Positions 2,570 to 23,802 of a stretch of 25,970 bases of DNA are shown one piece after another (position 1 is the stretch's first letter; each line of letters opens with the position of its first letter). The stretch lies in the IMG/VR virus record IMGVR_UViG_3300010885_069090, positions 1-25,970 of that record; one strand, given 5' to 3'. The notes beneath the pieces were generated by a model, which was given only the letters and a program-made list of their open reading frames with translations, was not told the DNA's origin and made no database searches. A program made the translations under genes and the position numbers. The stretch comes from a virus.

Positions 2570-2878
2570 TTGAATACAAACCAAATAAAACCAAGTAGTT
2601 ACGTCTTTGCGGTCGCCATGTGCTTGATCGCCTCCATGACGGTCTATAGGTACGTGGAGATAAGCCGTTTCAGGGAGAAGAGCGTCGAGTACGACTTCGT
2701 GGTCTCCGCCGGCGATCCGGAGATGGCCGACATAAAGAACAGGCTCAGGGGCATGACGTTTCAGTCGGTTGACGACGAGATCATCGACGAGGGAATCCAC
2801 AGACTCACGATCCGTTGCCCTCCAGACAAGGTCGGGATCGTCAAGGAACTTCTTTCAAGGGCAATGCCCGAGGAGTAG
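2570..2878 (+). CDS. Small single-pass membrane protein
   Basis: 102 residues from a TTG start at 2570. I prefer this start because the frame's upstream part overlaps the previous gene and because it puts the hydrophobic helix (YVFAVAMCLIASMTVYRYV, about residues 11-29) near the N-terminus. The rest, about residues 38-102, is a small beta-alpha-beta domain (VEYDFVVSAGD, MADIKNRLRG, HRLTIRCPP, VKELLSRAMPEE). The architecture parallels the membrane protein at 18697-19110: one helix, then a ferredoxin-like domain of the same strand order, suggesting distant paralogy. No Shine-Dalgarno is seen; a TATA-like box lies six bases upstream. The following gene starts two bases after this stop, so the genes at 2570, 2880 and 3293 form one unit. 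Function unknown. Confidence 0.6.
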   Translation: MNTNQIKPSSYVFAVAMCLIASMTVYRYVEISRFREKSVEYDFVVSAGDPEMADIKNRLRGMTFQSVDDEIIDEGIHRLTIRCPPDKVGIVKELLSRAMPEE

Positions 2879-2879
2879 A

Positions 2880-3296
2880 ATGCCCAATTCGTACGGAACG
2901 GTTCAAATACAGGATGGCATATATATCAGGTCGGACGCCCCTTCCCCCGTCACTGGCGTGGCGAGGCTTGGACGCGAGGAGGAGAGGGCGCTCCCCCCCG
3001 TGTTCGTCCCCAAGGCTTCCGGGATAAAAACTTTTATCGTGGATTTGCACTACAAGGACTATAAATACATCTATGGGTCTGGAAAGGCTGTTCCGACAAA
3101 CTTTACGATCGATCACGACAAGCGCTATCATAGGATAGTGTCCAGCAACAACCCGGTCGCCAAGATCAAGTCTTTCGTCGGTCAGTACGCCGGAAAGGCC
3201 GAGGCTTCGAAGCTCAGGAAGAGGATGATCGCGATAGAAAGGATGCACGGTTCGATTTCCAACGAGGTGTTTAGATTCGGGATCGGTGACTCATGA
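2880..3296 (+). CDS. Hypothetical protein
   Basis: 138 residues. The ATG at 2880 has a good Shine-Dalgarno, GAGGAG, provided by the end of the preceding gene, with the previous stop two bases upstream. The protein is soluble and rich in Lys, Arg, Tyr and Gly, with a strand-rich start (VQIQDGIYIRSDAP), a central IKTFIVDLHYKDYKYIYGSG, and a basic helical C-terminus (KLRKRMIAIERMH). No family is recognised. Its stop overlaps the next start as ATGA, so translation is probably coupled with the CTS-bearing gene at 3293. Confidence 0.65.
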   Translation: MPNSYGTVQIQDGIYIRSDAPSPVTGVARLGREEERALPPVFVPKASGIKTFIVDLHYKDYKYIYGSGKAVPTNFTIDHDKRYHRIVSSNNPVAKIKSFVGQYAGKAEASKLRKRMIAIERMHGSISNEVFRFGIGDS

Positions 3297-3634
3297 CATT
3301 CAAGCAATATCTGGAACAGACCGGACCCAAGGCCTGGATAGCCAAGAAAAAGGACGTCCTCCGCTTGTGGAGTTCGCTGAGGGAGGATATGCCCCTGAAC
3401 CCTCAGCCCGTCTCGAGCAACCATGTTGGCAACAGGTTCGACCAGGACGGCGTCCGCATCACTGGAAGCTCCCAGTTCGTAAACTCTGTTCTCGCAAAGC
3501 TCAAGCCTTTGCTCTTCTATTCTGAACATCCATCTCTTGAACTTGACGTTAAGTACAGGCAGGTCGTAAGCGATGAGACCTCCAACAAGCCTTCATTTGC
3601 TTGCTACATAAATGTTGTTCAGAAGGGCGAATGA
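3293..3634 (+). CDS. Small protein with capsid-targeting-like N-terminus
   Basis: 113 residues, overlapping the previous gene by four bases (ATGA). It begins MTFKQYLEQTG, which matches the recurring peptide of this window (F-x-x-[WY]-L-E), a candidate capsid-targeting sequence that would be clipped after Glu8. The remainder is a small alpha-beta protein with a segment SLELDVKYRQVV and no recognised motif. If the leader reading is right, this is a minor internal head protein. It is the only clear member in the left, otherwise early-looking block, and may be driven with its two upstream partners by the TATA-like box at 2555. Confidence 0.6.
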   Translation: MTFKQYLEQTGPKAWIAKKKDVLRLWSSLREDMPLNPQPVSSNHVGNRFDQDGVRITGSSQFVNSVLAKLKPLLFYSEHPSLELDVKYRQVVSDETSNKPSFACYINVVQKGE

Positions 3635-3696
3635 GTTGATTGTATTTTGTATGAAAACAAATACAAATGGATAAACAAAGTGGTTTTCTTACCTTG

Positions 3697-3730
3697 GCGC
3701 ACGTACATACTTATGTGCAAGGATGTGCGC
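3697..3730 (+). promoter_or_regulatory. Imperfect inverted repeat in the leader of the small Ser/Cys-rich gene
   Basis: GCGCAC at 3697-3702 pairs with GTGCGC at 3725-3730. Inside, GTACAT (3703-3708) can pair with ATGTGC (3713-3718, one G-U) around the loop ACTT. The 133-base gap from 3635 to 3767 holds this and a second short inverted repeat (GTATTTTGTA near 3648-3657 with ACAAAT near 3663). It may be a leader-RNA structure or a terminator of the upstream unit. No poly-U follows. Confidence 0.3.
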
Positions 3731-3767
3731 TAAGGGCAAGGATGCCCGATTTTTTTTGGAGAAGAAA

Positions 3768-3980
3768 ATGGCTGCATCATCTGTCACTGGGGTAGGCCTC
3801 GGCGATTCAAACGGAAAGCAGAAGCCGCAACTTCATTCGGGATGTGGGTGCGGCCTTTCTAGTTCCTCGTCCTCCTCGGCTCCCCCCGTTAAAAGGGGTT
3901 GTTTTGTGAGGATGTTTTCTGGAAGCGGGGCAAAATACAAGTCCGGCACTCCGGGCATAAAAAACGAATCCTGTTTTTGA
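3768..3980 (+). CDS. Small Ser/Cys-rich protein
   Basis: 70 residues from the ATG at 3768, chosen because GGAG lies seven bases upstream; an in-frame ATG at 3723 has no such site. The protein is low complexity: HSGCGCGLSSSSSSSAPP in the middle, then a basic stretch with further Cys, ending ESCF. There are four to five cysteines (CGCG, GCF, SCF), which could bind metal or form disulfides. No family is recognised. Its good ribosome site supports expression despite its size. It stands alone between a structured leader and the promoter of the Vsr-like gene. Confidence 0.5.
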   Translation: MAASSVTGVGLGDSNGKQKPQLHSGCGCGLSSSSSSSAPPVKRGCFVRMFSGSGAKYKSGTPGIKNESCF

Positions 3981-3985
3981 GGTCC

Positions 3986-4014
3986 TTTACAATCTTCGTT
4001 TTTCATCATAGAAT
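3986..4014 (+). promoter_or_regulatory. Sigma-70-like promoter for the Vsr-like gene
   Basis: TTTACA at 3986-3991, a 17-nt spacer, TAGAAT at 4009-4014, ATG at 4021. One of four copies of this promoter type on the plus strand. Confidence 0.6.
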
Positions 4015-4020
4015 CAGATC

Positions 4021-4443
4021 ATGGATTCAATTTCATCCGAAAAAAGATCTAACTTGATGTCCAAAATCCGCTCCCGTGGCAACAAGACCACGGAGCTGGC
4101 TCTTGTCGCTCAACTTAGGAATTTGGGCGTTTCTGGCTGGCGTCGGCATGTTTCAATAAATGTCCCCGGTCTTTCCGTCAGACCAGACTTTATTTTCAAG
4201 CACAGACGTCTGGCGGTGTTTTTGGACGGGTGCTTCTGGCATAACTGCCCTCTGCATGGAACCCTTCCCAAGTCCAACGTTGAATTCTGGGGGCGTAAGT
4301 TGGAGGCAAACAGGGCGAGGGATGCAAGAGTCAATTCAATCCTTGAAATCAACGGGTGGAGGGTATTGCGTTTCTGGGAACACAACATAAAATCTGATTC
4401 CGAAGAGTGTGTTGCGGAAATATATGCCGCCCTAAATATTTGA
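4021..4443 (+). CDS. Vsr-like (very short patch repair) endonuclease
   Basis: 140 residues, the usual size for Vsr. It opens with the family's SEKRSNLMSKIRSRGNKTTE (Glu25 in TTEL), followed by RPDFIF (Asp56, metal-binding) and FLDGCFWHNCPLHG (His74 and His79 region, with cysteines that may hold structural zinc), then the WE(x)N-like end RFWEHNIK. E. coli Vsr nicks DNA at T-G mismatches made by deamination of 5-methylcytosine. In phages, similar EDxHD-type nucleases also serve as freestanding homing enzymes. No cytosine methyltransferase is next to it; a methylase-like gene lies far away at 22664. Its own sigma-70-like promoter and lack of overlap with neighbours fit either a repair role or a selfish nuclease. 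Confidence 0.88.
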   Translation: MDSISSEKRSNLMSKIRSRGNKTTELALVAQLRNLGVSGWRRHVSINVPGLSVRPDFIFKHRRLAVFLDGCFWHNCPLHGTLPKSNVEFWGRKLEANRARDARVNSILEINGWRVLRFWEHNIKSDSEECVAEIYAALNI

Positions 4444-4527: not shown

Positions 4528-5085
4528 GTGAAGAATCTATTGCTCGCATTTTTGCTTTTGTTTCCAAATGTTTGCCTTGGCGCTGACATGTATGCCGATG
4601 TCCGCCAGCGGATCAATGGAGTCAGAAGAGCCCATGGCCTTTCTCCCCTTTCCTCCAACCAGCAGCTTGTATCCGCGGCTCAGTCCCAGTCGGACTGGAT
4701 GGCAAACGTCGGCAGGATGGAGCATCTCAGAGAGCCCGCAAGGTCTTTCGAGGAATACAAAGTTTGCAACTACCACCCTGCGAACAGGGTGGTGAACTCG
4801 GGCTACTTCAAGTTCGAGCAGCTCTTCAAGATGGACTTTAACCCGGACGGCTCGGGCGTGGAAGTTCACCCTCGGCCCGAGGCGAACAACAACGTCGGTG
4901 AGATCGTCGCCCGCGGCGCAGGCGGCGGCCCCGACGTCTACAGGCCAGACATTATTGTCAACGGATGGATGGACAGTCCCGGCCACAAGCAAGTCATTCT
5001 CACTCCTCAATTCAGGGATTTTGGCGTAGGAATCACGCCTGCGGGTCAGGATGTTTACTGGTGTGTCGTGTTTGGAACTCATTAA
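4528..5085 (+). CDS. Secreted CAP/SCP-domain protein
   Basis: 185 residues from a GTG start with an AGGTGA ribosome site upstream. The signal peptide MKNLLLAFLLLFPNVCLGA is clear, with cleavage likely before DMYADV. The mature protein is a CAP (cysteine-rich secretory, antigen 5, PR-1; bacterial YkwD) domain: an N-terminal helix INGVRRAHGLSPLSSNQQL, a SAAQSQSDWMANVGRMEH helix with the conserved His, GEIVARG, then the signature GWMDSPGHKQVILTPQFRDFGVGI and a final strand VYWCVVFG. CAP proteins are extracytoplasmic, with roles ranging from lipid binding to proteolysis or matrix interaction; none can be chosen here. A secreted CAP protein in a phage is uncommon and points to action on the host envelope or surroundings. 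Confidence 0.85.
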   Translation: MKNLLLAFLLLFPNVCLGADMYADVRQRINGVRRAHGLSPLSSNQQLVSAAQSQSDWMANVGRMEHLREPARSFEEYKVCNYHPANRVVNSGYFKFEQLFKMDFNPDGSGVEVHPRPEANNNVGEIVARGAGGGPDVYRPDIIVNGWMDSPGHKQVILTPQFRDFGVGITPAGQDVYWCVVFGTH

Positions 5086-8997: not shown

Positions 8998-9005
8998 GAT
9001 TTATA
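8998..9005 (-). promoter_or_regulatory. TATA-like box (putative late promoter) for the neck gene
   Basis: On the minus strand the sequence reads GGATATATAAATC, containing TATAAAT, just upstream of the AAGGAGG ribosome site of the gp14-like gene. It is the closest match in a gap to the T4 late element TATAAATA. Confidence 0.45.
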
Positions 9006-9465
9006 TATCCTTCGCGCCGCTCCTTCTTCTTGGCTTGTAGCTCAGTATGCACTTCAGCGTTTCGGTTCCATTGTAGCCCCACTCCGCTAGGCTGTTTCCG
9101 TCCGTGTGTATCTGGCTTGCGGGAACCCTCGCCGCTATCACGTCCATGTCTTGCCCTGGGTCTGAGGGGTGCTTTGAGTGCTGAATGGCGTATCCTCTGT
9201 TTATCGTCACCCAGTCCCCGGAGTTGATGGTTCTGACGCCCTTTGGCACGGCCCTAAATATCCAGGCTTCCCTTTCCGGCCTTCCTCTGTACCTTTTTGC
9301 CAAGTGGCCTGATTCTCTCTCCATGTCGTCCACCGCGTACTGATGAACCGTGTCGTAGATGTCGTGTGGATAAATTTTTGTGAGGTCGTGTAGAGGCGCT
9401 CCAAAATCCCCGTCGGGAGGTCTGTGGTTCATCTGGTAGTCCTCGAGCCAGTCTTTGAATCTCAT
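9001..9465 (-). CDS. ART-like protein with capsid-targeting-like N-terminus
   Basis: 154 residues; ATGA overlap with the upstream gene. It begins MRFKDWLEDY, the strongest form of the recurring N-terminal peptide. The rest matches a domain I know from phage polyvalent proteins: DLTKIYPHDIYD, IFRAVPKGVRTINSGDWVTINRGYA, VPASQIHTDGNSLAEWGY. Arg71, the GDWVT segment (84-87) and Glu128 sit where the R-S-E triad of ADP-ribosyltransferases would be, so an ADP-ribosyltransferase-like role is possible but unproven. T4 packages the ADP-ribosyltransferase Alt with a similar N-terminal targeting peptide and injects it to modify host RNA polymerase, which makes the combination attractive. The gene is in a late operon between another CTS-bearing gene and the neck gene. 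Confidence 0.6.
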   Translation of the reverse strand: MRFKDWLEDYQMNHRPPDGDFGAPLHDLTKIYPHDIYDTVHQYAVDDMERESGHLAKRYRGRPEREAWIFRAVPKGVRTINSGDWVTINRGYAIQHSKHPSDPGQDMDVIAARVPASQIHTDGNSLAEWGYNGTETLKCILSYKPRRRSGAKDI

Positions 9466-10772
9466 GACGCTTCCAGGTCAAGAAGTCTTGATAGTTTGAG
9501 GATATCCTCCTTCTCGTCCCTGCGGAGGTACTTTCCGTCGTGCTTCCTGAGTGCTCCCACAATTTTGTCTCGATATTCGGACTTGAACTCGTGGTATTCG
9601 TTCCTTGCGACCCTTTCGAAGAAGCCTTCGTTCTCAAGGCATTCCACCACGCTGTGCATGTTCATGATCGGATTTTCCAAATAGCTGGCCCAACCGTCAT
9701 CGATGAGGTCGTTGTAGTAGTGTATTAGGGCGTCCGCAGGATGGGCCAGACTGCTCGACCATCCGTCCTTGAGGCTTTCCGCAAGGTCTTGGAGAACCTT
9801 GTATTTGTTCTTGTCGTTGTATTTTACCGCCTCCACAAAAAACACGACGACCGAACTGTCTATTTCTTTCGCGAACTTGAGCAGTTCGTCCATGTCCGTC
9901 TTCTTGCTTGACTCCCTTATTTCGGACGGCTTCCACCCCAAGCCGGCGAGCTTCTGGTCGAGCATTCCCATGACCATTTCTCTGGCCTTGTCCGAAAGCA
10001 TAGCCCTTGCAATGAACTTTATGTAGCCGGCTGAACTCTTCACCTTGTTCTCGACGTTCGCCTCTTCCTCGCTTCCCGCCTTGGAAGAAACCGACTCCAA
10101 CTCGGCTCCGCGTCCCGTCAGTATTCTGTACCTGTGAACAAGACCGTTGTCCATCAAGGGCCTTAAGGATTCTTTCATGATGCCAATTACCGCATCCACG
10201 CTTTGGTTGGCTCCTTTGTTTCCGATGCTGAAGAAGAAGCTCCATGATGGAGACCCAACGGAAACCGCCTTGCTTATTCTGACTGAGTTTTGAGAGCCCG
10301 TTTTGAAGTCGGGAATGTCCGTTCCGTTCCTGAACTCTTTGTCCTTAGAGTCATCGAGCCGCTTCTGAAACCTCTCCCGCTCCGCAGGGACCATCTTCTC
10401 CGCGGCGGACTTCAGAAGCCCTCCGAACATGCCAAGCCCGACGTTTTTATATGGAACCCCGCCAAGAGATGTAAGTTTGGAACTGAGAGATTTTATGAAG
10501 GCTACGTCTGTTCCCTTGCCGGGATGCACCTTAGAAAACAGCAGCACGCCGACAAAGTCTGCTTTGCCCCCAGGGATGTGGGCATATCCACTCCTCTGCG
10601 ACCTCATGGGGATCACCCTGAATGTCGTCTCGTATCCGTCGTCCTTCGAGTATGAAAAATCCCTCGCAAGGTCAACCTCGGCCGGGTGTAGGGCAAGTTC
10701 CTCCCCGTTGTGCGACACCAAAATATCATGGTCGTCATAACCTGTGCTTTCAAGCCAGTCTTTGAATCTCAT
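9462..10772 (-). CDS. Large unknown protein with capsid-targeting-like N-terminus
   Basis: 436 residues, start overlapping the upstream stop by one base and stop overlapping the next start by four. It begins MRFKDWLESTGYDDHD; the first 20 bases of this gene are identical to those of the gene starting at 9465. After a predicted cut at Glu8 the protein has an alpha-beta N-terminal part with TTFRVIPMRSQRSGYAHIPGG, a Gly-rich GMFGGLL, and long helical stretches toward the C-terminus (MDELLKFAKEIDSSVVVFFVEA, DALIHYYNDLIDDGWASYL). No enzyme motif is recognised. Position in a virion operon and the leader suggest an internal head protein delivered with DNA. Confidence 0.65.
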   Translation of the reverse strand: MRFKDWLESTGYDDHDILVSHNGEELALHPAEVDLARDFSYSKDDGYETTFRVIPMRSQRSGYAHIPGGKADFVGVLLFSKVHPGKGTDVAFIKSLSSKLTSLGGVPYKNVGLGMFGGLLKSAAEKMVPAERERFQKRLDDSKDKEFRNGTDIPDFKTGSQNSVRISKAVSVGSPSWSFFFSIGNKGANQSVDAVIGIMKESLRPLMDNGLVHRYRILTGRGAELESVSSKAGSEEEANVENKVKSSAGYIKFIARAMLSDKAREMVMGMLDQKLAGLGWKPSEIRESSKKTDMDELLKFAKEIDSSVVVFFVEAVKYNDKNKYKVLQDLAESLKDGWSSSLAHPADALIHYYNDLIDDGWASYLENPIMNMHSVVECLENEGFFERVARNEYHEFKSEYRDKIVGALRKHDGKYLRRDEKEDILKLSRLLDLEAS

Positions 10773-11374
10773 TAGACCCCCACAAGTCTGCCACCCTTAG
10801 GTTCGGGAATTGGACTCTCCGGATCGTCGTCACCACCGTCGTCATCCCCTCCGATTTCGGTGTTATCTATCGCCTTGTTGATCCATTCCGCAAGTTGAAG
10901 GGGCGTTTTCAGTGCGGGACCGTCGAACTCCGCTAGCGCCCCAGGAAAGTTCACGCGGTCATCTCTTTCGCTGAGCTTGATGTGCCCATCCCTGTCGAGA
11001 AGGCCCCTCATGCTCCTCGCCTCCCCGTTAGCATTCCGCCCCGGAAGGCCGGTCTTTCCGTTGAACAGGAAAAGCGTCGCGGTTATTTTCATCTCGTCGC
11101 TCCCCTTCACCGAGTCATATTCTGTGTCGGGTTTTTCAAGGATTGCGTGAGCCCTGAGGAAGAAGAACGCTGGCTTCGGAACCTTGGGGTTGTAGAATGC
11201 CGCGCTCAGATCGAAAGAGTCCTTCGTGCCCTTGTCGGTCATCCAGCCCCGAGGCTCGACGCTCCACTTGATCCATTCGGCATTGACCTTGAAGTCGAGG
11301 GTCTTCTTCATGGCGTCGCCGGCGGCCGACCCCTTGACCGTCGCCTCCGATAGCCACTCGTAGAAGCCCTTCAT
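10772..11374 (-). CDS. Unknown protein with capsid-targeting-like N-terminus and acidic tail
   Basis: 200 residues, start overlapping the upstream stop by one base (TGATG). It begins MKGFYEWLSEATVKGS; the LSE followed by Ala is very close to the T4 prohead-protease rule (Leu/Ile-x-Glu, cut before a small residue). The body is alpha-beta with KPAFFFLRAHAIL and MKITATLFLFNGKTG strands. The C-terminal 30 residues are Asp/Gly-rich then Pro-rich (IGGDDDGGDDDPESP), probably disordered. No family is recognised. Middle gene of the leftward late operon. Confidence 0.65.
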   Translation of the reverse strand: MKGFYEWLSEATVKGSAAGDAMKKTLDFKVNAEWIKWSVEPRGWMTDKGTKDSFDLSAAFYNPKVPKPAFFFLRAHAILEKPDTEYDSVKGSDEMKITATLFLFNGKTGLPGRNANGEARSMRGLLDRDGHIKLSERDDRVNFPGALAEFDGPALKTPLQLAEWINKAIDNTEIGGDDDGGDDDPESPIPEPKGGRLVGV

Positions 11375-11775
11375 CAGTTGAGCTGCACTTGTGGTCGGAT
11401 CACGATTTCGCCTCCGCCCGAAGGAAGGCTGAAGGGCGCTCCCGGAAACTCCTCGGCCCAGAGAATGCTGTTCGAGGTGTTCGTCAAGTAGTAGCCTTGG
11501 ATGTCTTGTCCCACCGAGAAGCTGAAGGTTATCCCGGCGCTGTACACGGCCGCGGAAACGCCCGCAGTAGTGGTGGCGGTCCAGTTCGATCCGACGAGCG
11601 TAACGGGGCCATATCCGGCCGCGGTCGCTTGCGTAAAGCTCCCGGTGCTGAAGGTCTCCGCCGAAAGGTCGACGCTGTTCGCATAAAGGTGCAAGACGAG
11701 GTTCGTGGGGGCAGTCTTGTTGACTATGTATTCAAGAAGCCTGCGCTCGCCCTCGTCCGGTACTACTAGTGACAT
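11374..11775 (-). CDS. Virion structural protein (conserved phage tail/appendage type)
   Basis: 133 residues beginning MSLVVPDEGERRLLEYIVN, a start I recognise from a conserved family of small phage virion proteins. Typical later pieces are NLVLHLYANSVDLSAETFSTGSF, VTLVGSNWTATT, and the end GYYLTNTSNSILWAEEFPG, followed by IVIRPQVQLN. It is a beta-rich, Thr/Ser/Gly-rich particle protein; its exact place in the virion is unknown. A GAGG ribosome site and a symmetric TATA-like element (11797-11806) lie upstream. First gene of the leftward operon that carries three CTS-like proteins and the gp14-like neck protein, which links those proteins to late, virion-time expression. Confidence 0.75.
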   Translation of the reverse strand: MSLVVPDEGERRLLEYIVNKTAPTNLVLHLYANSVDLSAETFSTGSFTQATAAGYGPVTLVGSNWTATTTAGVSAAVYSAGITFSFSVGQDIQGYYLTNTSNSILWAEEFPGAPFSLPSGGGEIVIRPQVQLN

Positions 11776-11796
11776 TTTTTACCTCGTTTGTTCTCT

Positions 11797-11806
11797 TCTA
11801 TATAGA
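11797..11806. promoter_or_regulatory. Symmetric TATA-like element between divergent genes
   Basis: TCTATATAGA is a perfect palindrome in the 46-base gap between the divergent starts at 11775 (minus) and 11822 (plus). It could act as a -10-type box in both directions. Confidence 0.4.
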
Positions 11807-11821
11807 CAAATTAGTTAAAAA

Positions 11822-12538
11822 ATGACCATTATCGACAAAGAAGGAAAAATATATACGCTTGCTGGCCCAAACCCACTCGTCGAAAAACAGACGACATGGG
11901 ATACGTCTAAACTTGTGTTCCACAATTTCGAATGGGACGAAATAAAGACCTCGGGAGAGCCTAGGCGTAGAGCTCCGCCAAAAGAGCCAAAAATCAATCC
12001 TTTTGATGAGCTAGGGACTGCCGAGGAGAAGCTGGTCGACGCCCCTCAGAAAACAGCCCCCGAGGAGAAGATTGTCGAATCTCCTCATGAGGCGCCCCCT
12101 GAGGACAAGCGTGTCGAGGTTCTGGAGGAAAAGCCCCCCGAGCCCCAGAACGACGGAAGAGAGTTCGACCTTCCGTACATAAAGTACAAAGTTCTATCCT
12201 ACTGCCTTCCAGCCAACGTCCAGAAAAAATCCGACAGCCTATATGGTGATTCTTGGAGCACTTTGAAATACGGGAAGAAGTTCGTTTTCCCGTCCGTCGT
12301 GATATCATCCACCGACCTGTCCATAGAATTCTGGACGAGCGACCCCAAGAATCAAATAACGGAGAAGTCGATCATATATCCGTTCTCATACGAGGTGCAC
12401 AACAAGAGCACGGACAATTACGATAGGGTGCCATACGACGAGTACAGATGGTGGAAAGTTTCAAGCAAGGAAAATAAGGAAGAGGGGTGGCTGTTCAGAG
12501 CCTTTCCCTCGGATATTCAGCCCGACTTCTCGGAATGA
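11822..12538 (+). CDS. Hypothetical phage protein with Pro/Glu-rich middle
   Basis: 238 residues. The N-terminal 45 residues (MTIIDKEGKIYTLAGPNPL, then WDTSKLVFHNFEWDEI) look like a small folded cap that I have a faint memory of from other phage proteins. Residues about 47-115 are a disordered, repetitive Pro/Glu/Lys segment with units such as APEEKIVESPHEAPPEDKR. The C-terminal 120 residues form a beta-rich domain with many aromatics (YDEYRWWKVSS, EGWLFRAFPSDI). No Shine-Dalgarno; a symmetric TATA-like box lies 15 bases upstream. The 3' end overlaps the convergent gene at 12517 inside an inverted repeat. Probably a virion or assembly protein by context only. Confidence 0.6.
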   Translation: MTIIDKEGKIYTLAGPNPLVEKQTTWDTSKLVFHNFEWDEIKTSGEPRRRAPPKEPKINPFDELGTAEEKLVDAPQKTAPEEKIVESPHEAPPEDKRVEVLEEKPPEPQNDGREFDLPYIKYKVLSYCLPANVQKKSDSLYGDSWSTLKYGKKFVFPSVVISSTDLSIEFWTSDPKNQITEKSIIYPFSYEVHNKSTDNYDRVPYDEYRWWKVSSKENKEEGWLFRAFPSDIQPDFSE

Positions 12539-13248: not shown

Positions 13249-16158
13249 ATGAAGTTTTCAGATTGGATTTTGATCAAGGAGTCCTCCGACGTCCCCGTCT
13301 CGGGACCCGGAATAAAAGCACTACAGGACGCGATGAGGGACATGGCATCCCGCGGCGCCCCCACCGAATACAACGACTTCGGTTTCAACAAGCAGGACTG
13401 GTCGACCTACCAGTCCATGATGGCCTCTGGCTACATCGACTCGCACTCCGTTCCCGCAAGGGCGGCCGCCACGATGCTCAGGGTTCTGTCGCACTACCAG
13501 AACACCCAGTTCACCGGCTACAGGCAGATCAGCTCGATGGTGCAGCGCGACATGGCTTCGGTGCAGGCCGTGGCGACGTCGGGCGACAAGGTTGTGGTTT
13601 TCGACCGCCAGCCCCTCGAGTACGGAAAGTTCAAGGTCTACATCCCGCACGGCCTCGACCGGGGATCGACCATCCTTATAAATAGAATACTCGACTCCCG
13701 GCTCGAGGCGGACGGCGAGATGAAGTCGGAGGACAAGTATGGGAAGGATGTCTACCCAAGATTCAAAAAAATGTCCACCGATAGGTCATCGATGCACACG
13801 TACAGGATACACAGGAGCGTTCTCGACCCCGTTCTCGCGGTGCTGAAGTCCAAGGGTATGTTGATAGAATATGAATCGGGAGCCCGTCCGAACATCGGCT
13901 CGGCACCGCAGAGCCCAAGCACTCCTTCATCGATTGCCTTAGAGCCGGATGTGGAGATAATCGGCAAGGAGAAGACCGACTACGGAAACAAGGTCGCGGT
14001 AAAGTTCAACTACGAGAAGAGCAAGGGTATTCTCAACAAGATGAGGGGCGAAGGCCTCGTGCCAAAGGGAATATCATACGCAGGAAACAGCAAGTTCCTC
14101 ATAAACATAGACGACAGAAGTATTTTCGATAAAGTGCTCGCCAAGATTTCAGAGTTCGGCCTCGACATATCACCCCTCCAGGAGTTCTCCAAGTCTCTGG
14201 CCGCCGTCGCGGAAAAGCCCGCGTCAACGGAAAGGCCTGCGGACTCGGCTAGCAAGGAAGGCGTCATGAAATTCACCGACGCCGCCGACGACTCCATGAA
14301 AGTCAAGACCGACGTCAGGGGTCTTTCGCAGGACAGAAGGGACTTTGTGCGCGAATCCGTACAATACACGTTCCCTGACTACAAGTACGACATGGGCGGC
14401 CGCTTCTACACGGTGAGCGGAAACTACAAGCAGTACGTCACGTTCGGAAGGCTCCTAGGCAAGTTCGGGTATCCCGTCGATGAACTCAGGGCCATAGTCA
14501 AAGCCAAGCTCGACAGCGGAAGGCTGTCCAAGACAGAATGGGAGGGCAGATTCGACGACGACCAGAAATTCATGGACTCGATAGAGGACAAACTGCCCGA
14601 CAGCCTCATAGACCTTTACGACGAGCAGAAATTCGGGGTCGCCTTTCTCTACGGAAGAGACCACGCGATACTGGGCGACGAGACGGGATTCGGGAAGAGC
14701 GTTCAACTAATATCCGCCGCCGCCCTCAGGATGCAGTCCAACAGCAAGCCAACCCTGATCATAACCCTCAAGGATACACAGAAGCAGTTCGCGGACGAGA
14801 TAGTCAGGGTCATGGGCGAGAAAGAACGCGAACAGATCTCCCTCGACCCCGACCACCCCAAGAAATGGACGGTCACAAGATATAGCAACTTCTCGGGAGG
14901 AAAGGACGCGAGGAACGAGAAGGTCAAGGGCCATGTGGAGGCCCTTAAGAAAGCGGGCTTCGGCATTGTGATCATGGACGAGCTCCACAAGGTCAAACAC
15001 GGAACTAGCGACAGGAGCAAGAATATAGCCTCCGTTGTGGAGAACATACCAACCAAGTGGGGCGCTTCCGCAACCGTTTCGAGCAACAAGCCTATGGACG
15101 TCAAGAACCAGCTGCTCATCACCGGCCATCAACTCGGCAAGGTGAGCGAGCCCAAGTTCAAGAAGGACTTCGCGGGCATGAAGCCCACCGGATGGGGCGG
15201 GGCGTTGGAGAAGAGCGACGACGACGAGGACGAAATAAGGGCCGCAGAAAGGCTGAACAAATGGCTGAACCTTTCCGGCGTATACGTTCGCAGGGAGAAG
15301 GGGCAGATCAGGAAGATGCCCGAACTATCCGTCAAGAGCGACACCGTAGACCTCGACCGAGACAAGTTCCAGAGGCTCTACGGAGCGAGGGTTTCAACAT
15401 ACAAGAACCAAAAGCTGGCGGTGAGCAAGCTGATAGCCGCCCGCGAGACGGTGGCCCAGCTCAAGACGGACGAGACCACAAGGAGGGTTCTCGACATAGT
15501 CAAGGCCGGTCAAGGCAAGCCACCCGCCGCGAGCAAGGTCGTAATATTCACCAACTTCATAGAGTCCGGCCGACAGCTCGCGGAAAAGATATCCGAAGGG
15601 CTCAGATCCATAGACCCTAGCTTCACGGCGATCACCTACCTCTCCGACACGGTCAGGAAGGAAAGGGAGCAGGTCAAGAAAAAGTTCACCGACGACCCGA
15701 ACATCAAGGCGCTCGTCATGAGCATGAAGATGGGCGGAACCGGCATAGACTTCCCGAACGCCTCCCAGCACATGATCATAAACGACTTCGACTGGACCCC
15801 GGAGAGCGCGGAGCAGAGCGAGGGAAGGATATACAGAATCAACACCGACCACCCCGTGAACATACAGTATGTTGTGGGCGCCGGGCTCGACAAGGAACTG
15901 TTCGAGAAGGTGCAGAGAAAGAGGGAGATAGCTGCCATCATCCAGAAGTACAGGAGGGACTACCACGCTTCCGAGGCCGCCCCCGAGGCCCTCGCCAAGA
16001 TCGTGGCCGCACAGAAGGAGATGAGAAAGCTGGACGACGACATGGCGAAAATAGTCGCAAAGGAACTGCCGGGTACAGAGAAGGGGATCGAGGAGTCGTT
16101 CTCCTCGTTCATAGAAAGAGTCATGGAGTTTAAGGAGGCTCTTTTCCCTTCGGAGTGA
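13249..16158 (+). CDS. SNF2-type superfamily 2 helicase/ATPase with capsid-targeting-like N-terminus
   Basis: 969 residues. It begins MKFSDWILIKESSD, a member of the recurring leader (IKE, then Ser). Residues about 20-330 are an unusual N-terminal region with a PST linker near 220 and no recognised domain. About 340-450 is an alpha-beta module, RRDFVRESVQYTFPDYKYD. The SF2 core follows: Walker A GDETGFGKS (about 476), Walker B IMDELHKVK (about 577, DELH replacing DEAH), motif III SAT (about 607), motif IV VVIFTNF, and motifs V-VI MGGTGIDFPN and QSEGRIYRI (about 857). This is the SNF2/SWI2 layout, a DNA translocase rather than a strand separator. A translocase in the head would recall phage P1 DarB, a packaged helicase/methylase-type anti-restriction protein. 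No nuclease domain is seen. Confidence 0.88.
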   Translation: MKFSDWILIKESSDVPVSGPGIKALQDAMRDMASRGAPTEYNDFGFNKQDWSTYQSMMASGYIDSHSVPARAAATMLRVLSHYQNTQFTGYRQISSMVQRDMASVQAVATSGDKVVVFDRQPLEYGKFKVYIPHGLDRGSTILINRILDSRLEADGEMKSEDKYGKDVYPRFKKMSTDRSSMHTYRIHRSVLDPVLAVLKSKGMLIEYESGARPNIGSAPQSPSTPSSIALEPDVEIIGKEKTDYGNKVAVKFNYEKSKGILNKMRGEGLVPKGISYAGNSKFLINIDDRSIFDKVLAKISEFGLDISPLQEFSKSLAAVAEKPASTERPADSASKEGVMKFTDAADDSMKVKTDVRGLSQDRRDFVRESVQYTFPDYKYDMGGRFYTVSGNYKQYVTFGRLLGKFGYPVDELRAIVKAKLDSGRLSKTEWEGRFDDDQKFMDSIEDKLPDSLIDLYDEQKFGVAFLYGRDHAILGDETGFGKSVQLISAAALRMQSNSKPTLIITLKDTQKQFADEIVRVMGEKEREQISLDPDHPKKWTVTRYSNFSGGKDARNEKVKGHVEALKKAGFGIVIMDELHKVKHGTSDRSKNIASVVENIPTKWGASATVSSNKPMDVKNQLLITGHQLGKVSEPKFKKDFAGMKPTGWGGALEKSDDDEDEIRAAERLNKWLNLSGVYVRREKGQIRKMPELSVKSDTVDLDRDKFQRLYGARVSTYKNQKLAVSKLIAARETVAQLKTDETTRRVLDIVKAGQGKPPAASKVVIFTNFIESGRQLAEKISEGLRSIDPSFTAITYLSDTVRKEREQVKKKFTDDPNIKALVMSMKMGGTGIDFPNASQHMIINDFDWTPESAEQSEGRIYRINTDHPVNIQYVVGAGLDKELFEKVQRKREIAAIIQKYRRDYHASEAAPEALAKIVAAQKEMRKLDDDMAKIVAKELPGTEKGIEESFSSFIERVMEFKEALFPSE

Positions 16159-16195: not shown

Positions 16196-16213
16196 CCAGA
16201 TTTATAAATCTGG
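16196..16213. promoter_or_regulatory. Perfect 18-bp palindrome before the sulfotransferase gene
   Basis: CCAGATTTATAAATCTGG is a perfect palindrome at the left edge of the AT-rich island, 13 bases before the ATG at 16226. Its centre contains TATAAAT. A dimeric repressor site, a symmetric promoter element, or (as a 7-bp stem with a TATA loop) a weak hairpin are possible. It is not followed by a T run. Confidence 0.5.
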
Positions 16214-16225
16214 TGAAACAAAAAA

Positions 16226-16804
16226 ATGATATCAGACAAGCACAAATTAATTTTTATTCATATTCCAAAGTGCGCAGGATGTAGCATAGAAAAAATATTT
16301 AATAGCAGTATGATGGATCATCAAACCGCTTTGCAAATAAAAAACAAATACCCAGAAAAATGGAATTCTTATTTTAAATTCACAATAGTAAAAAATACAT
16401 GGGAAAGAATAGTCTCTATTTATCATTTTAGAAAGGAAAAAAAAAGACTGTCAGAGCATTTGGAAAACAAAAATAATATTGATTTAAATTTTGAAGAATG
16501 GATTTATTCAATAGTTGAAAATAACCTTATGTTGAATGCTGGCATCAGCAGTCAGCTTGATTATTTTTTAATAAACGAAGAAAACTCAATGGATAAAGTT
16601 ATTGAATTTAAAGAAATTTATTTAGTTCAAAATATTCTAGACAGTTTTAATTTAAAAATGATTCACATTAATAAATCTAAGCATAATTGTTATTCATATT
16701 ACTATACAAAAAAACTTGTAAATTTAGTGTACGATATTTTTGAAAAAGAAATAAAATATTTTGATTTTAAATTTGAATCAAAATCTAAATTTAAAATATT
16801 TTAA
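16226..16804 (+). CDS. Sulfotransferase (Sulfotransfer_2-like)
   Basis: 192 residues. The N-terminal IFIHIPKCAGCSIEKIF (residues 9-25) is the PAPS 5'-phosphosulfate loop, normally PKTAGTS, here with Cys in place of both Thr. KFTIVKNTWERIVSIYHF (51-68) is the 3'-phosphate-binding segment, normally VRNPxxRxxSxY, again a variant with Lys-Asn-Thr. The C-terminal part (LVNLVYDIFEKEIKYFDFKF) is typical of the family's end. The enzyme would move sulfate from PAPS to a hydroxyl or amino group, probably on a sugar; lack of a signal peptide suggests cytoplasmic action. A GGTGA ribosome site lies about nine bases before the ATG. Codon use is extremely AT-rich. The 3' end overlaps a convergent sulfatase gene by exactly 14 bases. 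Confidence 0.8.
   Translation: MISDKHKLIFIHIPKCAGCSIEKIFNSSMMDHQTALQIKNKYPEKWNSYFKFTIVKNTWERIVSIYHFRKEKKRLSEHLENKNNIDLNFEEWIYSIVENNLMLNAGISSQLDYFLINEENSMDKVIEFKEIYLVQNILDSFNLKMIHINKSKHNCYSYYYTKKLVNLVYDIFEKEIKYFDFKFESKSKFKIF
16791..16804. repeat. Palindrome that contains both convergent stop codons
   Basis: TTAAAATATTTTAA is a perfect 14-bp palindrome and is exactly the overlap between the sulfotransferase and sulfatase genes. Read on either strand it ends in TAA, so both proteins finish with Lys-Ile-Phe. Confidence 0.8.
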
Positions 16805-18014
16805 AAACAATTTTGTCTTTATAGTTACATAGAATATTAAACAACTCTATTCTTAATTCTTTTTTTAGAGAAACATTGTAAGATAAATCATTTAGGCAAT
16901 AAGGGTCTAATTTGTAATTATATATTTCTTCTTTATTTCTGTTCCTAATTTTATTTTTTTTGCATAACTCTAAATTGTCAAAAGATGGATAGCCGGGTCT
17001 AGATCCTTCGCAATTAAAGTTATTTACATTGAAATTGAACAAATAATTATAAGTGTCTGTAATTAAAGATCTAATTTGAAGACGATCTCCATTGACATTC
17101 TCATGCAAACAAGATATTATTTTTTTTTGCTTTATTTTTCTTTTTTTTATTTCATTGTAGTAAGATGATCCATCTAATTTTAAATCATGATCAATTCCTA
17201 GCATTTCTAGGACTGTCGGCATAAAATCAATGGAAGAAATGTTTTCATTAAAATTTTTAGGAGTAAGATTTTTACCATGAAATATTAATGGAACTTTTGT
17301 GCTATGATAATAACAATTTGCTTTTACAAAAGGAAAGGAAAATCCATGATCACTTGTAAAAACTAAAAGTGTTTCATCAATAACGCTATTGGATTTAAGT
17401 AATTCTAAAATCATACCAACACCTAAATCTAGAGAATTAACAGAAGAATAATAATTAGATAAATCAATTCTAGTTTGTATGTTATCAGTTAGGAATTGAG
17501 GGACGGAAACATCTTCAGGCTTGTAAATCGATTCACAAAAAGGCCTATGTGGATAATTGAAGTTGCAAGATATGAAAAAAGGTTGTTTTTTATTTTTTAG
17601 TATTTTGCTTATGAAATCAAAATAAATTGAATTATTTTTTTCTATTGCAAATTTAGAGTGTTGATAGTCCCAAGGAAATTTGCTTTCGGGTTGATAGTGG
17701 CTTTCTTTGCCTATGATTGAACAACAATAGCCATTATTTCTTAAAATTTCTACAATTGTTGTGACTTTTTCAAAAACAGGACCGAAACCAGTTGCTCCAT
17801 TGTTCCAAGGATAAAGACCAGTGCTCAAAACGGATCTAGAGGGTTGGCATAGAGACACAACAGTATGTGCATTTTCAAAGTTTATGGAATTTTTGCAAAG
17901 TGCATCCAAATTAGGAGTTATATTTTTAATTGAACAACCTTGATAACCCAAAGAACCATAACTTAAATCATCTGCCGTTATGATTATCAAATTTTTCCAC
18001 TCTTTAAAATTCAA
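16791..18014 (-). CDS. Type I sulfatase, sulfamidase-like, with degenerate targeting-like N-terminus
   Basis: 407 residues from a TTG that overlaps the metalloprotease stop as TTGA. Active-site residues of formylglycine sulfatases are present: Asp15-Asp16 (TADDLSYG), LCQPSRSVLSTG with Cys56 to be oxidised to formylglycine and Arg60, GKESH (Lys103, His106), NYPHRPF (His156), TSDHG (Asp222-His223) and STKVPLIF (Lys240). The order and spacing, with FPWDY, DLGVG and LLVFTSDHGFSFP, resemble heparan N-sulfatase (SGSH). It hydrolyses sulfate esters or N-sulfate groups. It has no signal peptide, and needs a formylglycine-generating enzyme, probably from the host. It starts MNFKEWKN immediately before the first strand, resembling the packaging leader but without the Glu cut site. 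AT-rich like its convergent sulfotransferase neighbour. Confidence 0.85.
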   Translation of the reverse strand: MNFKEWKNLIIITADDLSYGSLGYQGCSIKNITPNLDALCKNSINFENAHTVVSLCQPSRSVLSTGLYPWNNGATGFGPVFEKVTTIVEILRNNGYCCSIIGKESHYQPESKFPWDYQHSKFAIEKNNSIYFDFISKILKNKKQPFFISCNFNYPHRPFCESIYKPEDVSVPQFLTDNIQTRIDLSNYYSSVNSLDLGVGMILELLKSNSVIDETLLVFTSDHGFSFPFVKANCYYHSTKVPLIFHGKNLTPKNFNENISSIDFMPTVLEMLGIDHDLKLDGSSYYNEIKKRKIKQKKIISCLHENVNGDRLQIRSLITDTYNYLFNFNVNNFNCEGSRPGYPSFDNLELCKKNKIRNRNKEEIYNYKLDPYCLNDLSYNVSLKKELRIELFNILCNYKDKIVFKIF

Positions 18015-18700
18015 GACTCGCCTCCCAGTTCGTGTTTTGGCATCGACTTCCCCGCGATCATCCGCACAAGCTTCATTTCTTCATCGCTCAACACAGAAGG
18101 ATTCACCACGGCTTCCGCCACGAGCTCACAGAACTTCTCCTCTGGCTTGGTGAACGAGTACGAGGAAAGGTTGCTCGCCCTTCCGAAAGAACCCGCCCAG
18201 TACATGGAGAAAGACCCCTTGTCCCGCTTCGGCAATGACTTCCAAAGCGCGTGGGCCCACTCGTGGGCGACAACATGCATCATCCTCTTGTCGTCAAGGT
18301 TTTTCTGCACCCTGATTACATGAAGTTGAGGCTCGTGGGTTCCTTCCGCGTCTGCCATGCTTATGTTGTCCTGGAATATCACATTGACCCGGATGCGTGA
18401 AAAGCCTAGGCCTTGGAGTCTTCTGGATACCTCCACAAGAAAATCTCCTTTGAATGCCTCGGCGAAATTGTCCTTGGAATAAATACTCATCCCCCACTCC
18501 GGATCAACTCCGTCCGTCTTGGTCTTGGCGGAGTAGGCTCTGAACCAGCCGTAGTTGCCAAGGTCTTTGAAGGGCATGGCCGAGGATTTCGGGTAGCCGT
18601 CCGATACTTGTGCGGCCACTTGAAATCTTTTAACCCCTCCGACAGTCTCTAGCCAATTTTTGAATGTAATATCCTCATAATGGATTTTGAATGTCTTCAT
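18011..18700 (-). CDS. Zinc metallopeptidase-like protein with capsid-targeting-like N-terminus
   Basis: 229 residues from the ATG at 18700, which overlaps the previous stop as ATGA. I use this start rather than a longer frame because the ATGA coupling and the leader both fit. The N-terminus MKTFKIHYEDITFKNWLE contains the recurring motif (FKNWLE at 13-18), set nine residues further in than in the other members. The catalytic HExxH is clear: HVVAHEWAHALW (His147, Glu148, His151), with acidic residues in KPEEKFCELVAEAV (188-199) as possible third ligand. The fold would be a small gluzincin/minigluzincin-like protease. Target unknown. A packaged protease could act on host proteins at injection or on phage proteins in the head. 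The next gene is the sulfatase, overlapping by four bases. Confidence 0.7.
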   Translation of the reverse strand: MKTFKIHYEDITFKNWLETVGGVKRFQVAAQVSDGYPKSSAMPFKDLGNYGWFRAYSAKTKTDGVDPEWGMSIYSKDNFAEAFKGDFLVEVSRRLQGLGFSRIRVNVIFQDNISMADAEGTHEPQLHVIRVQKNLDDKRMMHVVAHEWAHALWKSLPKRDKGSFSMYWAGSFGRASNLSSYSFTKPEEKFCELVAEAVVNPSVLSDEEMKLVRMIAGKSMPKHELGGES

Positions 18701-20076: not shown

Positions 20077-20103
20077 TTTTTGACGCAAAGGTACAATGCT
20101 TTA

Positions 20104-21687
20104 ATGATTCTGCACGACGAACTTCTTGTTCCTTATGAAAAGATAAAGTGGAGGGAACTTGTCCCCGTCATCTGCGACTACTGCGGGGATAGAACGGAGA
20201 AGAAGAAGAACAAGATTCAGAAGGGCAGGAAGTCCATAGAAAAGGATTCGTGCACAAAGGATCCATGCACCAAGAAGAAGCTCGCGGAGATAAACCTACT
20301 CAAACACGGCGTCGCCAACCCCTTCCAGCGAAAGGACGTCAAGGACAAGATAAAAAAGACAAACCTTGAGCGGCACGGGGTCGAGCACGCCCAGCAGAGC
20401 TCCTCCATAAGGGCAAAAAGCAGGGCGACATGTTTGAAGAACCATGGGGTCGAGCACGCACTCCAGAACAAGGAAATCCTTCAAAAGGCTCAAGATAAAA
20501 GTCTGGAGTTGTACGGAACCAAATTCCCCATCCAACTGGATGAATTCAAAAGCAAGGTCAGGGATACAAACCTAGAGAGATATGGCGAAAAGGACTTCCT
20601 TAAATCTCCCGAAGTGAGAGAAAGAATAAGGCAGACGAACATAATCAAGTATGGAGTTGAATCGCCAGCCGCCTCTAAAGAGGTCAAGGAGAAGATAAAA
20701 AAGACTAACTTTGAAAGATATGGAGCGGAAAACACTTTCGCATCCAAGGAAATTCAAGAAAAAATACGGCAAATCAACACGGAAAAATACGGCACTCCAT
20801 TTCCTATAAAAAAGTTCGGCAAAACCCAAGAATCCATCCGGTCCTGGCTCAACTCCCACGACTTCAATTTCGTATCGGACTACAAGATACTCGAAGGAAA
20901 GGAACTGGATTGCTATGACGCCGACAAGAATTTCGCGCTCGAATACTGCGGCCTCTACTGGCACAATGAGAACTCGCCGGAACCAAGGACGCGTTCCTAC
21001 CACTACGACAAGTGGAGGCGGTGCAGGGACAAGGGCATCCAACTTCTGACCATATTTGATGATGAATGGAAATCGAAGAACGAGATCATCAAGAGCGTGA
21101 TCCTTTCCAAGCTGGGCGTGTTCGAGCGGAGAATCCACGCCAGAAAGTGCCGTGTGGATGCAATTTCAAAAGACCGCATGAAATCCTTCTGCGACATCTA
21201 CCACATCCAGGGCGGAAACAGGCTCAGCAAGGTGTGCTTTGGGCTTTTCCATGAAGAGGAGCTTGTCGGGGTGGTCGACCTTGGCCGCCACCACAGGAAG
21301 AAGGACAAGGATTCTGTGGTGCTGACGAGGCTCTGCTTCAAGGCCGGCGTCCAGGTCGTCGGCGGTGCGGGCAAGATGTTCAAGGCCTGCACGGCGTGGT
21401 GCTCCGACAATGGGATGAAGAGCATCGTTTCTTGGAGCGACAACAGGTACAGCGACGGCACCATCTACAACAAACTCGGATTTAAACTTATGGAGGAGCT
21501 TCCCCCCGACTACTACTATGTGAACATAAAAAATCCAAAGAGGAGGCTGAGCAAGCAGAGCCAGAGCAAGAGGAACTCCCAGTGCCCCAAGGAGATGACC
21601 GAGCTGGAATGGGCCAACGCACGCGGCCTTTCAAGGATATGGGACTGCGGAAAGGCGAGGTGGGAATTTAACTTATCCGTTGGATAA
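20104..21687 (+). CDS. Hef-type freestanding homing endonuclease (Vsr-like nuclease with GNAT-like tail)
   Basis: 527 residues from the ATG at 20104; a TTG at 20080 is possible but has no ribosome site. Four parts are visible. First, an N-terminal Cys segment (ICDYCGD, CTKDPCTKK). Second, eight repeats with an exact 23-residue period beginning at units like LERYG and ending KIKKTN, which in related phage enzymes are thought to bind DNA. Third, an EDxHD/Vsr-like nuclease (KELDCYDADKNFALEYCGLYWHNE, LLTIFDDEW). Fourth, a C-terminal acetyltransferase-like domain (LVGVVDLGRHH, VQVVGGAGKMFKA, SWSDNRYSDGTIYNKLGF). This is the layout of Hef homing enzymes of T4-like phages. It lies 27 bases after the gp13-like gene and probably spreads by copying itself into homologous loci. 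Confidence 0.82.
   Translation: MILHDELLVPYEKIKWRELVPVICDYCGDRTEKKKNKIQKGRKSIEKDSCTKDPCTKKKLAEINLLKHGVANPFQRKDVKDKIKKTNLERHGVEHAQQSSSIRAKSRATCLKNHGVEHALQNKEILQKAQDKSLELYGTKFPIQLDEFKSKVRDTNLERYGEKDFLKSPEVRERIRQTNIIKYGVESPAASKEVKEKIKKTNFERYGAENTFASKEIQEKIRQINTEKYGTPFPIKKFGKTQESIRSWLNSHDFNFVSDYKILEGKELDCYDADKNFALEYCGLYWHNENSPEPRTRSYHYDKWRRCRDKGIQLLTIFDDEWKSKNEIIKSVILSKLGVFERRIHARKCRVDAISKDRMKSFCDIYHIQGGNRLSKVCFGLFHEEELVGVVDLGRHHRKKDKDSVVLTRLCFKAGVQVVGGAGKMFKACTAWCSDNGMKSIVSWSDNRYSDGTIYNKLGFKLMEELPPDYYYVNIKNPKRRLSKQSQSKRNSQCPKEMTELEWANARGLSRIWDCGKARWEFNLSVG
20296..20808 (+). repeat. Coding tandem repeat, 8 units of 69 bp (23 residues), in the homing endonuclease
   Basis: Units begin at 23-residue steps with LLKHG, LERHG, LKNHG, LELYG, LERYG, IIKYG, FERYG and TEKYG. 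The protein period is exact while the DNA has diverged, so the repeat is old and under selection. It is not a CRISPR array. Confidence 0.75.
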
Positions 21688-21695: not shown

Positions 21696-22538
21696 ATGGA
21701 ATTTAAAGATTGGTTGATTTTAGAGTCTTCGGATCAGGTCGTGCTTATGAAAACAGTTAACGACGAAGGTTCGGACTCCATCAAGAAGGTTGGTTTTCAA
21801 CTCCAGGACACGCACCGCTCTACGGCCAATTACTACAAGAAATATGGCGACACGAGTACGGGCCAGATGTACGGCCCGGGTTTATATTTCACCATAGTCC
21901 CCGCCGGGCAAGACCCAACTGAATATGCGAAGAAAAACTGCAAGATGTACTCGCAGTGGGGCAACCACATCGCATTTGCGACGATCAAGCCCGGCAGCCG
22001 TGGACTGGTGACCGGGTTCCCGCCAAATCATCCCATGTGGAAGTATATCGCATCCAAAAACACCTATATCTATGACCAACTTCAAGCCCTTGGCGTGGAT
22101 AAGATCGTCGGATACACGAAGGACAATGTCCATGTCGACAAGGAGTGGGGGTACAAGCTGCACGACAAGATGGATTTTTGGGCTCATTCTCACTGGGCGG
22201 AGGGCGGTGAGGCGAGGCTCAATGTAGTTGTATACAACCCGTCCGTTCTCCAGGCGTCCGGAGAATTTGAGTGCGAAACGGGAAAGAAAAAAGTGGACCC
22301 CGGGACGACAGGTGGCACCATGCAATCTGCTCCCAACCAGGCAAACGCCTCCCAGACGCCCAGAACGCAAGGCTCTAAATGGGCTCCAATTGAACATCCG
22401 CCCCTCAGAACGCCAGAAGAACAGGCAAAAGTGGACGCCCGGCTGGCCAAATTGGACGCCTGGCGTCGCTCGCCCCAAGTGAAGCCCGCCCCTCAAAAAA
22501 AGGACGACCATGACTTTCTTAGTCTAGAGGAAACTTGA
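21696..22538 (+). CDS. ART/PARP-like protein with capsid-targeting-like N-terminus (tentative)
   Basis: 280 residues beginning MEFKDWLILESSDQ; ILE then Ser-Ser-Asp matches the helicase start (IKE then Ser-Ser-Asp) in sequence and place. Residues about 30-165 contain VGFQLQ, MYGPGLYFTIVP (60-66) and DPTEYAKKNCKMY, a layout like the GxGxYF and YA-x(n)-Y segments of ADP-ribosyltransferases of the PARP/polyvalent-protein kind. The catalytic set cannot be fixed, so this is a weak call. The C-terminal third is Pro/Ala/Gln-rich and probably disordered (QTPRTQGSKWAPIEHPPL). Together with the leader it is a candidate injected toxin-like enzyme, as T4 Alt is. The start has no Shine-Dalgarno but a TATA-like box five bases upstream. 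It stands alone, nine bases after the homing endonuclease. Confidence 0.5.
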   Translation: MEFKDWLILESSDQVVLMKTVNDEGSDSIKKVGFQLQDTHRSTANYYKKYGDTSTGQMYGPGLYFTIVPAGQDPTEYAKKNCKMYSQWGNHIAFATIKPGSRGLVTGFPPNHPMWKYIASKNTYIYDQLQALGVDKIVGYTKDNVHVDKEWGYKLHDKMDFWAHSHWAEGGEARLNVVVYNPSVLQASGEFECETGKKKVDPGTTGGTMQSAPNQANASQTPRTQGSKWAPIEHPPLRTPEEQAKVDARLAKLDAWRRSPQVKPAPQKKDDHDFLSLEET

Positions 22539-23331: not shown

Positions 23332-23802
23332 ATGAGATTTCATGAGTGGGCCGAACAGAGGCAGATCGACGAGTCGTCATCCCGATACAGCGTGGAGGTC
23401 AACTACAGGACCAAGACGAGGGAGGTCCTTGAGGGCTTCGCCAAGATAGCCCTCGGCTACGTGAGCGCCGCCATGAAGAAGAAGGGCTACCACGTCAAGC
23501 AGGTGTTCGAAGAGAGCCCCATGCGGATAATCGTCAGCTCGAGGAACTGGGACGACGGCGAGTGGGTCGGCATGGTGAGCTACAGCTCAAAGGACGACTC
23601 GGGATGCTTCATCGTCTCGAACGGCTTCTACAACCGCGACAGGAAGACCGTGTCCGTCCAGAGGTCGGAGAGGTGCAAGAACGACACCCCCGCAGAGATG
23701 ACGAAGGAACTCGTGAACATGATGCACTCCCTCAAGGGCAAGAAGGACAGACACCAGGAGAAGCTAAACCCCGCGCTTCTGAAGAGGGGCCCGAAGAAAT
23801 AG
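23332..23802 (+). CDS. Unknown protein with capsid-targeting-like N-terminus
   Basis: 156 residues starting MRFHEWAEQRQIDESSSRY. The leader fits the family (F-x-E-W-x-E), with Glu8 and a second Glu14 as possible cut sites. The remainder is a small, basic alpha-beta protein: TREVLEGFAKIALGYVSAAMKKKGYHVKQVF, MRIIVSSRNWDDGEWVGMVSYSS, and a Lys-rich end KKDRHQEKLNPALLKRGPKK. No family is recognised. Basic proteins of this size are common among T4 internal head proteins. Its stop is part of the 13-bp inverted repeat at 23797-23809 shared with the convergent neighbour. Confidence 0.6.
   Translation: MRFHEWAEQRQIDESSSRYSVEVNYRTKTREVLEGFAKIALGYVSAAMKKKGYHVKQVFEESPMRIIVSSRNWDDGEWVGMVSYSSKDDSGCFIVSNGFYNRDRKTVSVQRSERCKNDTPAEMTKELVNMMHSLKGKKDRHQEKLNPALLKRGPKK

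Follow-up and report, generated by a model that had tools for sequence, protein, structure and literature searches.

Sulfotransferases have been reported in phages, with a role that has been called unclear (PMC10580990). In the open-access literature, no report of a phage-encoded sulfatase of the kind described below was found, nor was any paper joining sulfatase, sulfotransferase and phage. The closest phage sulfotransferases are those of the huge phages LR756500 and LR756508, which belong to the same family (Sulfotransfer_2/PHROG 3347) as the enzyme considered here, share its PAPS motifs and show 36–38% and 27% identity to it. For the sulfatase, the closest solved enzyme is human sulfamidase, SGSH (PDB 4mhx/4miv), of sulfatase class S1. 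Another relevant system is the capsid-targeting sequence of T4. Targeting requires the N-terminal residues of this sequence and still takes place after an alteration that prevents cleavage, with L/I-x-E as the prohead protease motif within such sequences (PMC9026906).

The locus lies in an IMG/VR record of 25,970 bases, analysed over its entire length and referred to as the window, which represents a fragment of a tailed phage. Its genes include a T4-type neck protein, a head-closure protein, a late-type sigma factor, and an RNA ligase/tail-fibre attachment protein. For the neck protein, identity is 58% to the counterpart in the 595-kb phage LR756511 and 88% to that in the IMG/VR contig L014; together with the T4-type genes, these matches point to a T4-like, probably huge, phage as the source. 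A DNA-level search of phage records with the window gave no match. The analysis is based on this one short metagenomic record, with small trees, and related phages were collected via an SNF2-type helicase encoded to the left of the genes of interest. Further genes of the window include one with DUF7487 repeats and a Mom-like domain (a DNA modification family) at 20080–21687, conserved in L014 and L021, a Vsr-like mismatch endonuclease identified by Pfam at 4021–4443, and a protein beside the latter (4528–5085) that by eye appears CAP-like.

Within this fragment, two convergent genes for a predicted sulfotransferase and a predicted sulfatase make up an AT-rich island (Table 1). The reading that we lean towards is of a horizontally acquired cassette for editing the sulfate of glycans in a large T4-like phage, probably obtained from a more AT-rich phage.

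The AT-rich island and its surroundings

A two-change-point maximum-likelihood fit delimits a segment with a GC content of 0.263, compared to 0.529 for the rest of the window. Outside the island every 1800-bp stretch has a GC content of at least 0.481 (mean 0.528, sd 0.017). Third-position GC follows the same pattern, with values of 0.21 and 0.20 for the sulfotransferase and sulfatase genes and 0.53–0.89 for neighbouring genes. The initial annotation had let its claim of an AT-rich island depend on a composition scan, and the scan shows the region to be an outlier. Both borders are sharp. On the right, the composition step stops exactly where the sulfatase start codon begins, and on the left the border falls at a palindrome just 5′ of the sulfotransferase gene. 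The island is also absent from the close relative L014, the closest relative record (150 kb), in which neither PF00884 nor PF03567 has a match. A composition unlike that of the genome, sharp borders and absence from a close relative together mark the segment as a horizontally acquired island.

Table 1. Features of the island and of the genes that flank it (window coordinates).
Feature	Position	Strand	Basis
SNF2-type helicase, tagged; left neighbour of island	13249–16158	+	
Palindrome CCAGATTTATAAATCTGG; left border, 12 nt before sulfotransferase start	16196–16213		
AT-rich imported segment	16201–18014		two-change-point fit, composition profile
Sulfotransferase (Sulfotransfer_2), 192 aa	16226–16804	+	Pfam, PHROG, alignments, tree
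16-bp palindrome TTTAAAATATTTTAAA, common to the overlapping 3′ ends of both genes	16790–16805		
Type I sulfatase, sulfamidase-like, 407 aa, TTG start	16791–18014	−	Pfam, PDB/fold matches, alignment, tree
First six sulfatase codons, MNFKEW; fits N-terminal tag of the phage group	17997–18014	−	
M78-like peptidase gene upstream of sulfatase (weak match, below Pfam cut-off)	18011–18700	−	
g16, opening the run that continues with the M78-like and sulfatase genes; conserved in L014	18697–19110	−	

The palindrome at the left border reads TATAAAT on both strands and is a possible TATA-like late promoter element. The pattern TATAAATA was also considered as a T4-like late promoter and rejected. It occurs at two sites in the window against 0.2 expected and shows no excess in relatives, with 4 occurrences against 5.9 expected in G007 and 12 against 14.2 in G006.

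The convergent layout of the two genes, as first described, was upheld: frames on the + and − strands meet with overlapping 3′ ends, and both proteins end in FKIF. It is also correct that both genes end in one palindrome, as TTTAAAATATTTTAAA spans the two 3′ ends. This sequence consists of A and T only, and its occurrence is near chance for such AT-rich DNA (~0.15 expected, by hand estimate). A role as a shared intrinsic terminator was not accepted because it contains no G or C.

The position of the island directly after the helicase gene can be compared with that in related phages. In L006, the same helicase is directly followed (10930–12176) by two genes of 22–24% GC in a locus of 31.5% GC, one of which is PseF-like and resembles a CMP-sugar cytidylyltransferase. 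In L015, a distant Sulfotransfer_2-like gene occupies the same place (11062–11694). Other helicase neighbours are structural genes, AAA ATPase or unknowns, and in L014 the gene order at this locus differs. These data suggest that the site after the helicase is a variable spot for glycan-related cassettes. Such a hotspot is suggested and not proved, glycan or sulfate genes being present in only three of about nine loci next to the helicase.

The two enzymes and their relatives

The sulfotransferase matches Pfam Sulfotransfer_2 (PF03567) with a modest 31.1 bits against a cut-off of 22, over model positions 4–140 of 252, and PHROG 3347, ‘Galactose-3-O-sulfotransferase’, with an E value of 6e-11. 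Its structure model has a pLDDT of 82, and the best PDB matches are sulfotransferases, although weak (best E 0.024). The 5′-PAPS loop reads PKCAGCS and the 3′-phosphate motif VKNTWERIVS. In the alignment Lys15 and Ser64 are kept, with Lys56 (VKNTWER) replacing the usual Arg of RNP. The loop had been singled out as unusual, which is only partly the case: PKCAG in itself is nothing out of the ordinary, with PKCAGTS present in L025, and the odd features are Cys19 and the Lys in place of the RNP Arg. In the tree, the protein groups with the LR756500 and LR756508 homologues with moderate support (89/92). The window enzyme differs from these in the Lys of its 3′-phosphate motif. The two huge-phage genes also both lie within glycosyltransferase clusters, the LR756500 stretch having 22% GC, whereas that of the window stands alone with a sulfatase.

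The sulfatase matches Pfam Sulfatase (PF00884) with 132 bits against a cut-off of 25, over all 301 model positions (1–301 of 301). The maturation motif C-x-P-S-R-x4-TG is present as CQPSRSVLSTG, with Cys56 as the residue that would be converted to formylglycine, as in type I (formylglycine-type) sulfatases. The initial annotation attributed a full set of active-site residues to this protein, and the alignment shows every metal-binding and catalytic residue examined to be in place (D15, D16, C56-Q-P-S-R60, K103, H106, H156, D222, H223 and K231). These comprise the metal ligands DD (D15 D16) and D[HN]G (D222 H223) as well as the catalytic Lys and His. Loss of these residues in close relatives, which the same source had named as a refutation, was not seen: the alignment with phage homologues shows them retained. 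For both products the core motifs look intact, and the predicted activities are opposed, as originally proposed.

The sulfamidase-like layout of the sulfatase likewise finds support, with human sulfamidase being both the best PDB sequence match and the best match of the predicted fold, although the mean pLDDT of the model is only 64. The metal-binding, Cys, and catalytic residues of SGSH align with those of the window enzyme. The latter differs from SGSH in being shorter, in lacking a signal peptide, in having KESH instead of KKH and in its weakly matched C-terminal part. As the SGSH C-terminal domain PF16347 reaches only 22.7 bits, under its cut-off of 29.3, the label stops at sulfamidase-like and the enzyme is not classed as a sulfamidase.

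A search for proteins with the domain of the formylglycine-generating enzyme (FGE) came up empty for the window and for 17 of 18 related phage records. The exception is the L016 record (G009), with an FGE-sulfatase domain match at 64155–65075. This match is broken into pieces within a product of 1012 aa, perhaps a receptor-binding protein, and probably does not represent a maturation enzyme.

By eye, signal peptides are absent from the window sulfatase and from the phage homologues examined. The phage sulfatases (window, L021, L025 and L026) start at or near the catalytic core, and most bacterial relatives viewed (L050, L051, L080 and L081) have signal-like hydrophobic N-terminal stretches, again by eye. 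The lack of signal peptides suggests that the phage sulfatases are likely to be intracellular until lysis. The window sulfatase also has no tail or fibre domain.

Single-sequence searches of viral contigs with either protein found no close relatives and alignments were required. Alignment-based sulfatase scans with short patterns, in which the finds represent a lower bound, identified viral sulfatases in a few contigs, namely L021–L024, L025 and L026/L027/L093. The closest are those of L021–L024, which are ~42% identical to that of the window over residues 8–401. These come from T4-like phage and share with the window enzyme the active site, a KxxH insertion and the lack of a signal peptide. 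They differ in having a GC content native to their genome (0.31 for the L021 gene in a genome of 0.32) and no MNFKEW, and no sulfotransferase was found in those records. By inspection, the L021 contig carries major capsid, prohead protease, portal and terminase genes, as well as homologues of window genes.

In a 16-member sulfatase tree, the protein of the window and L021/L023 form a clade with support of 100/99. Next to it (98/97) is a Bacteroidota sulfatase, 38% identical and the nearest cellular sequence found. In this group an insertion places one more residue between catalytic Lys and His (KESH, KAEH, KEIH) than in the K-x-H of the others. The insertion is not unique to the group, however, as L050 and L051 read KLLH.

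Both predicted activities also occur together in L025 (G015), a 150-kb virus contig with one sulfatase, seven sulfotransferase matches and many glycan genes. Its sulfatase is distant from that of the window (26–28%) and is located in a long glycan gene cluster rather than an AT-rich island. In L026, a T4-like contig, the sulfatase gene (2872–4281) lies between apparent portal and prohead protease genes. Apparent phage sulfatases on human faecal scaffolds were set aside as doubtful, the records being unverified and unannotated; of three that were read, two encode sulfatases with signal-peptide-like starts, such as bacteria have. The island is most simply explained as having come from an AT-rich phage. 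The cellular side of the comparison covered a single phylum, with one pattern-limited scan and 247 genomes, and so there may be a cellular donor closer than the phages.

The sulfatase start and the N-terminal tag

Three genes, g16, the M78-like gene and the sulfatase gene, form a run in this order, with overlaps of 4 nt. The stop codon of the M78-like gene overlaps the sulfatase start (TTGA), and translation of the sulfatase appears to be coupled to that of the genes before it. The presence of MNFKEW at the sulfatase start, an earlier observation, is real, and the TTG, a start codon rare among window genes, is preceded by GGGAGG with a 6-nt spacer.

This hexamer fits a strict tag, M.F.[DE]W, which is seen once among 5573 interior Met positions and never among 625 background ORF starts, but recurs at several other starts in the window. 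In the window and related records, about 29 proteins of the phage group have a tag of the form M.{1,2}[FY].xW at or near their start. Tagged loci in the window are the helicase gene, 9001–11374, 21696–22538 and 23332–23802, with others in L064–L079 and L007; a typical tag is MRFKDWLE at window position 9465, and the M78-like gene carries an embedded one, ITFKNWLET. A hydrophobic-x-E site occurs soon after the tag in 25 of 29 tagged proteins compared to 28% of control stretches. The tag is thus likely to be a capsid-targeting sequence on many different enzymes, including the SNF2 helicase. It resembles that of T4 in being a short N-terminal tag found on many proteins and mostly followed by hydrophobic-x-E. 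It differs in its letters (M.F..W).

The window sulfatase departs further from T4 in lacking the protease site, with no hydrophobic-x-E in the 16 residues after MNFKEW. Packaging of the sulfatase is still plausible since T4 targeting can outlast the loss of cleavage (PMC9026906). Sulfatase homologues lack the hexamer, that of L021 starting with MNIVFISADD. The codon make-up of the hexamer was rejected as a means of telling a resident from an imported tag, because resident tags are likewise AT-rich at those codons.

Possible roles of the pair

In the favoured reading of a sulfate-editing cassette, the sulfotransferase would draw on host PAPS to sulfate a glycan that is made or altered in the course of infection. 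Provided that a host enzyme matures its Cys56, the sulfatase would remove sulfate from a glycan or amino-sugar substrate. Given the lack of signal peptides, both enzymes would be made in the infected cell and would work either there or once it has lysed, with no export to the surface during infection. The sulfatase would come from the final gene of the closely overlapping run, and its tag may lead to packaging.

A more specific role, which complements the cassette and does not exclude it, is that of injected cargo. The sulfatase, fused to a capsid-targeting tag, would be packed in the head, ejected and active in the first minutes of infection. We regard this as tentative. The fit of MNFKEW to a strict tag that is rare at background positions (1/5573 and 0/625), its absence from homologues such as L021, the good ribosome site GGGAGG and the TTGA overlap with a gene that is itself tagged are all consistent with such a role, as are the hydrophobic-x-E sites of 25 of 29 group proteins and the T4 targeting that persists when cleavage is blocked (PMC9026906). 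Conversely, the sulfatase core begins at once after the hexamer with no hydrophobic-x-E, the TTG start is rare in the window, the packaging role of the tag in this phage group is putative, and the tag match was spotted before being tested. A further step would be that a foreign sulfatase, set behind the phage's own tag as the closing member of a series of tagged genes, is delivered with the DNA and that the co-imported sulfotransferase reverses its effect later in infection, so that enzymatic cargo would be exchangeable as a cassette behind a standard tag; this is rather doubtful.

The tag also bears on the earlier model, in which sulfation of the host surface would act against superinfection and a particle-bound sulfatase would remove sulfate at entry or release. 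The location of huge-phage sulfotransferases in glycosyltransferase clusters would suit this model, and sulfated extracellular polysaccharide could be a target for enzyme freed at lysis. However, action on host surface sugars at entry is weakened by the lack of a signal peptide in the window sulfatase, as in the phage homologues examined, and of any tail or fibre domain. In addition, a T4-type tag would place the enzyme inside the head, to be ejected into the cell, and not at the surface. A substrate common to the two enzymes is hypothetical, and the model is now unlikely. It is improbable, too, that the sulfatase or the pair serves as a metabolic gene, supplying the infected cell with sulfate cleaved from small sulfated metabolites or sulfated amino sugars. 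Sulfamidase, the closest match among solved structures, acts on N-sulfated glucosamine, and the phage enzyme would be cytoplasmic, but its partner is a sulfotransferase rather than a transport or sulfur-assimilation gene, and family resemblance leaves the substrate unfixed. Recent passenger DNA with no function for the phage appears the least probable explanation. The composition has not adapted to the genome and the closest relative record lacks both genes; yet both frames are open with intact core motifs, the sulfatase start is neatly linked to the gene before it, and homologues persist in several phages.

A pair of opposing chemistries in one imported island provides a concrete, testable case of phages editing the sulfate of glycans. 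If the tag works, it would represent a modular route by which large phages load new enzymes into their heads.
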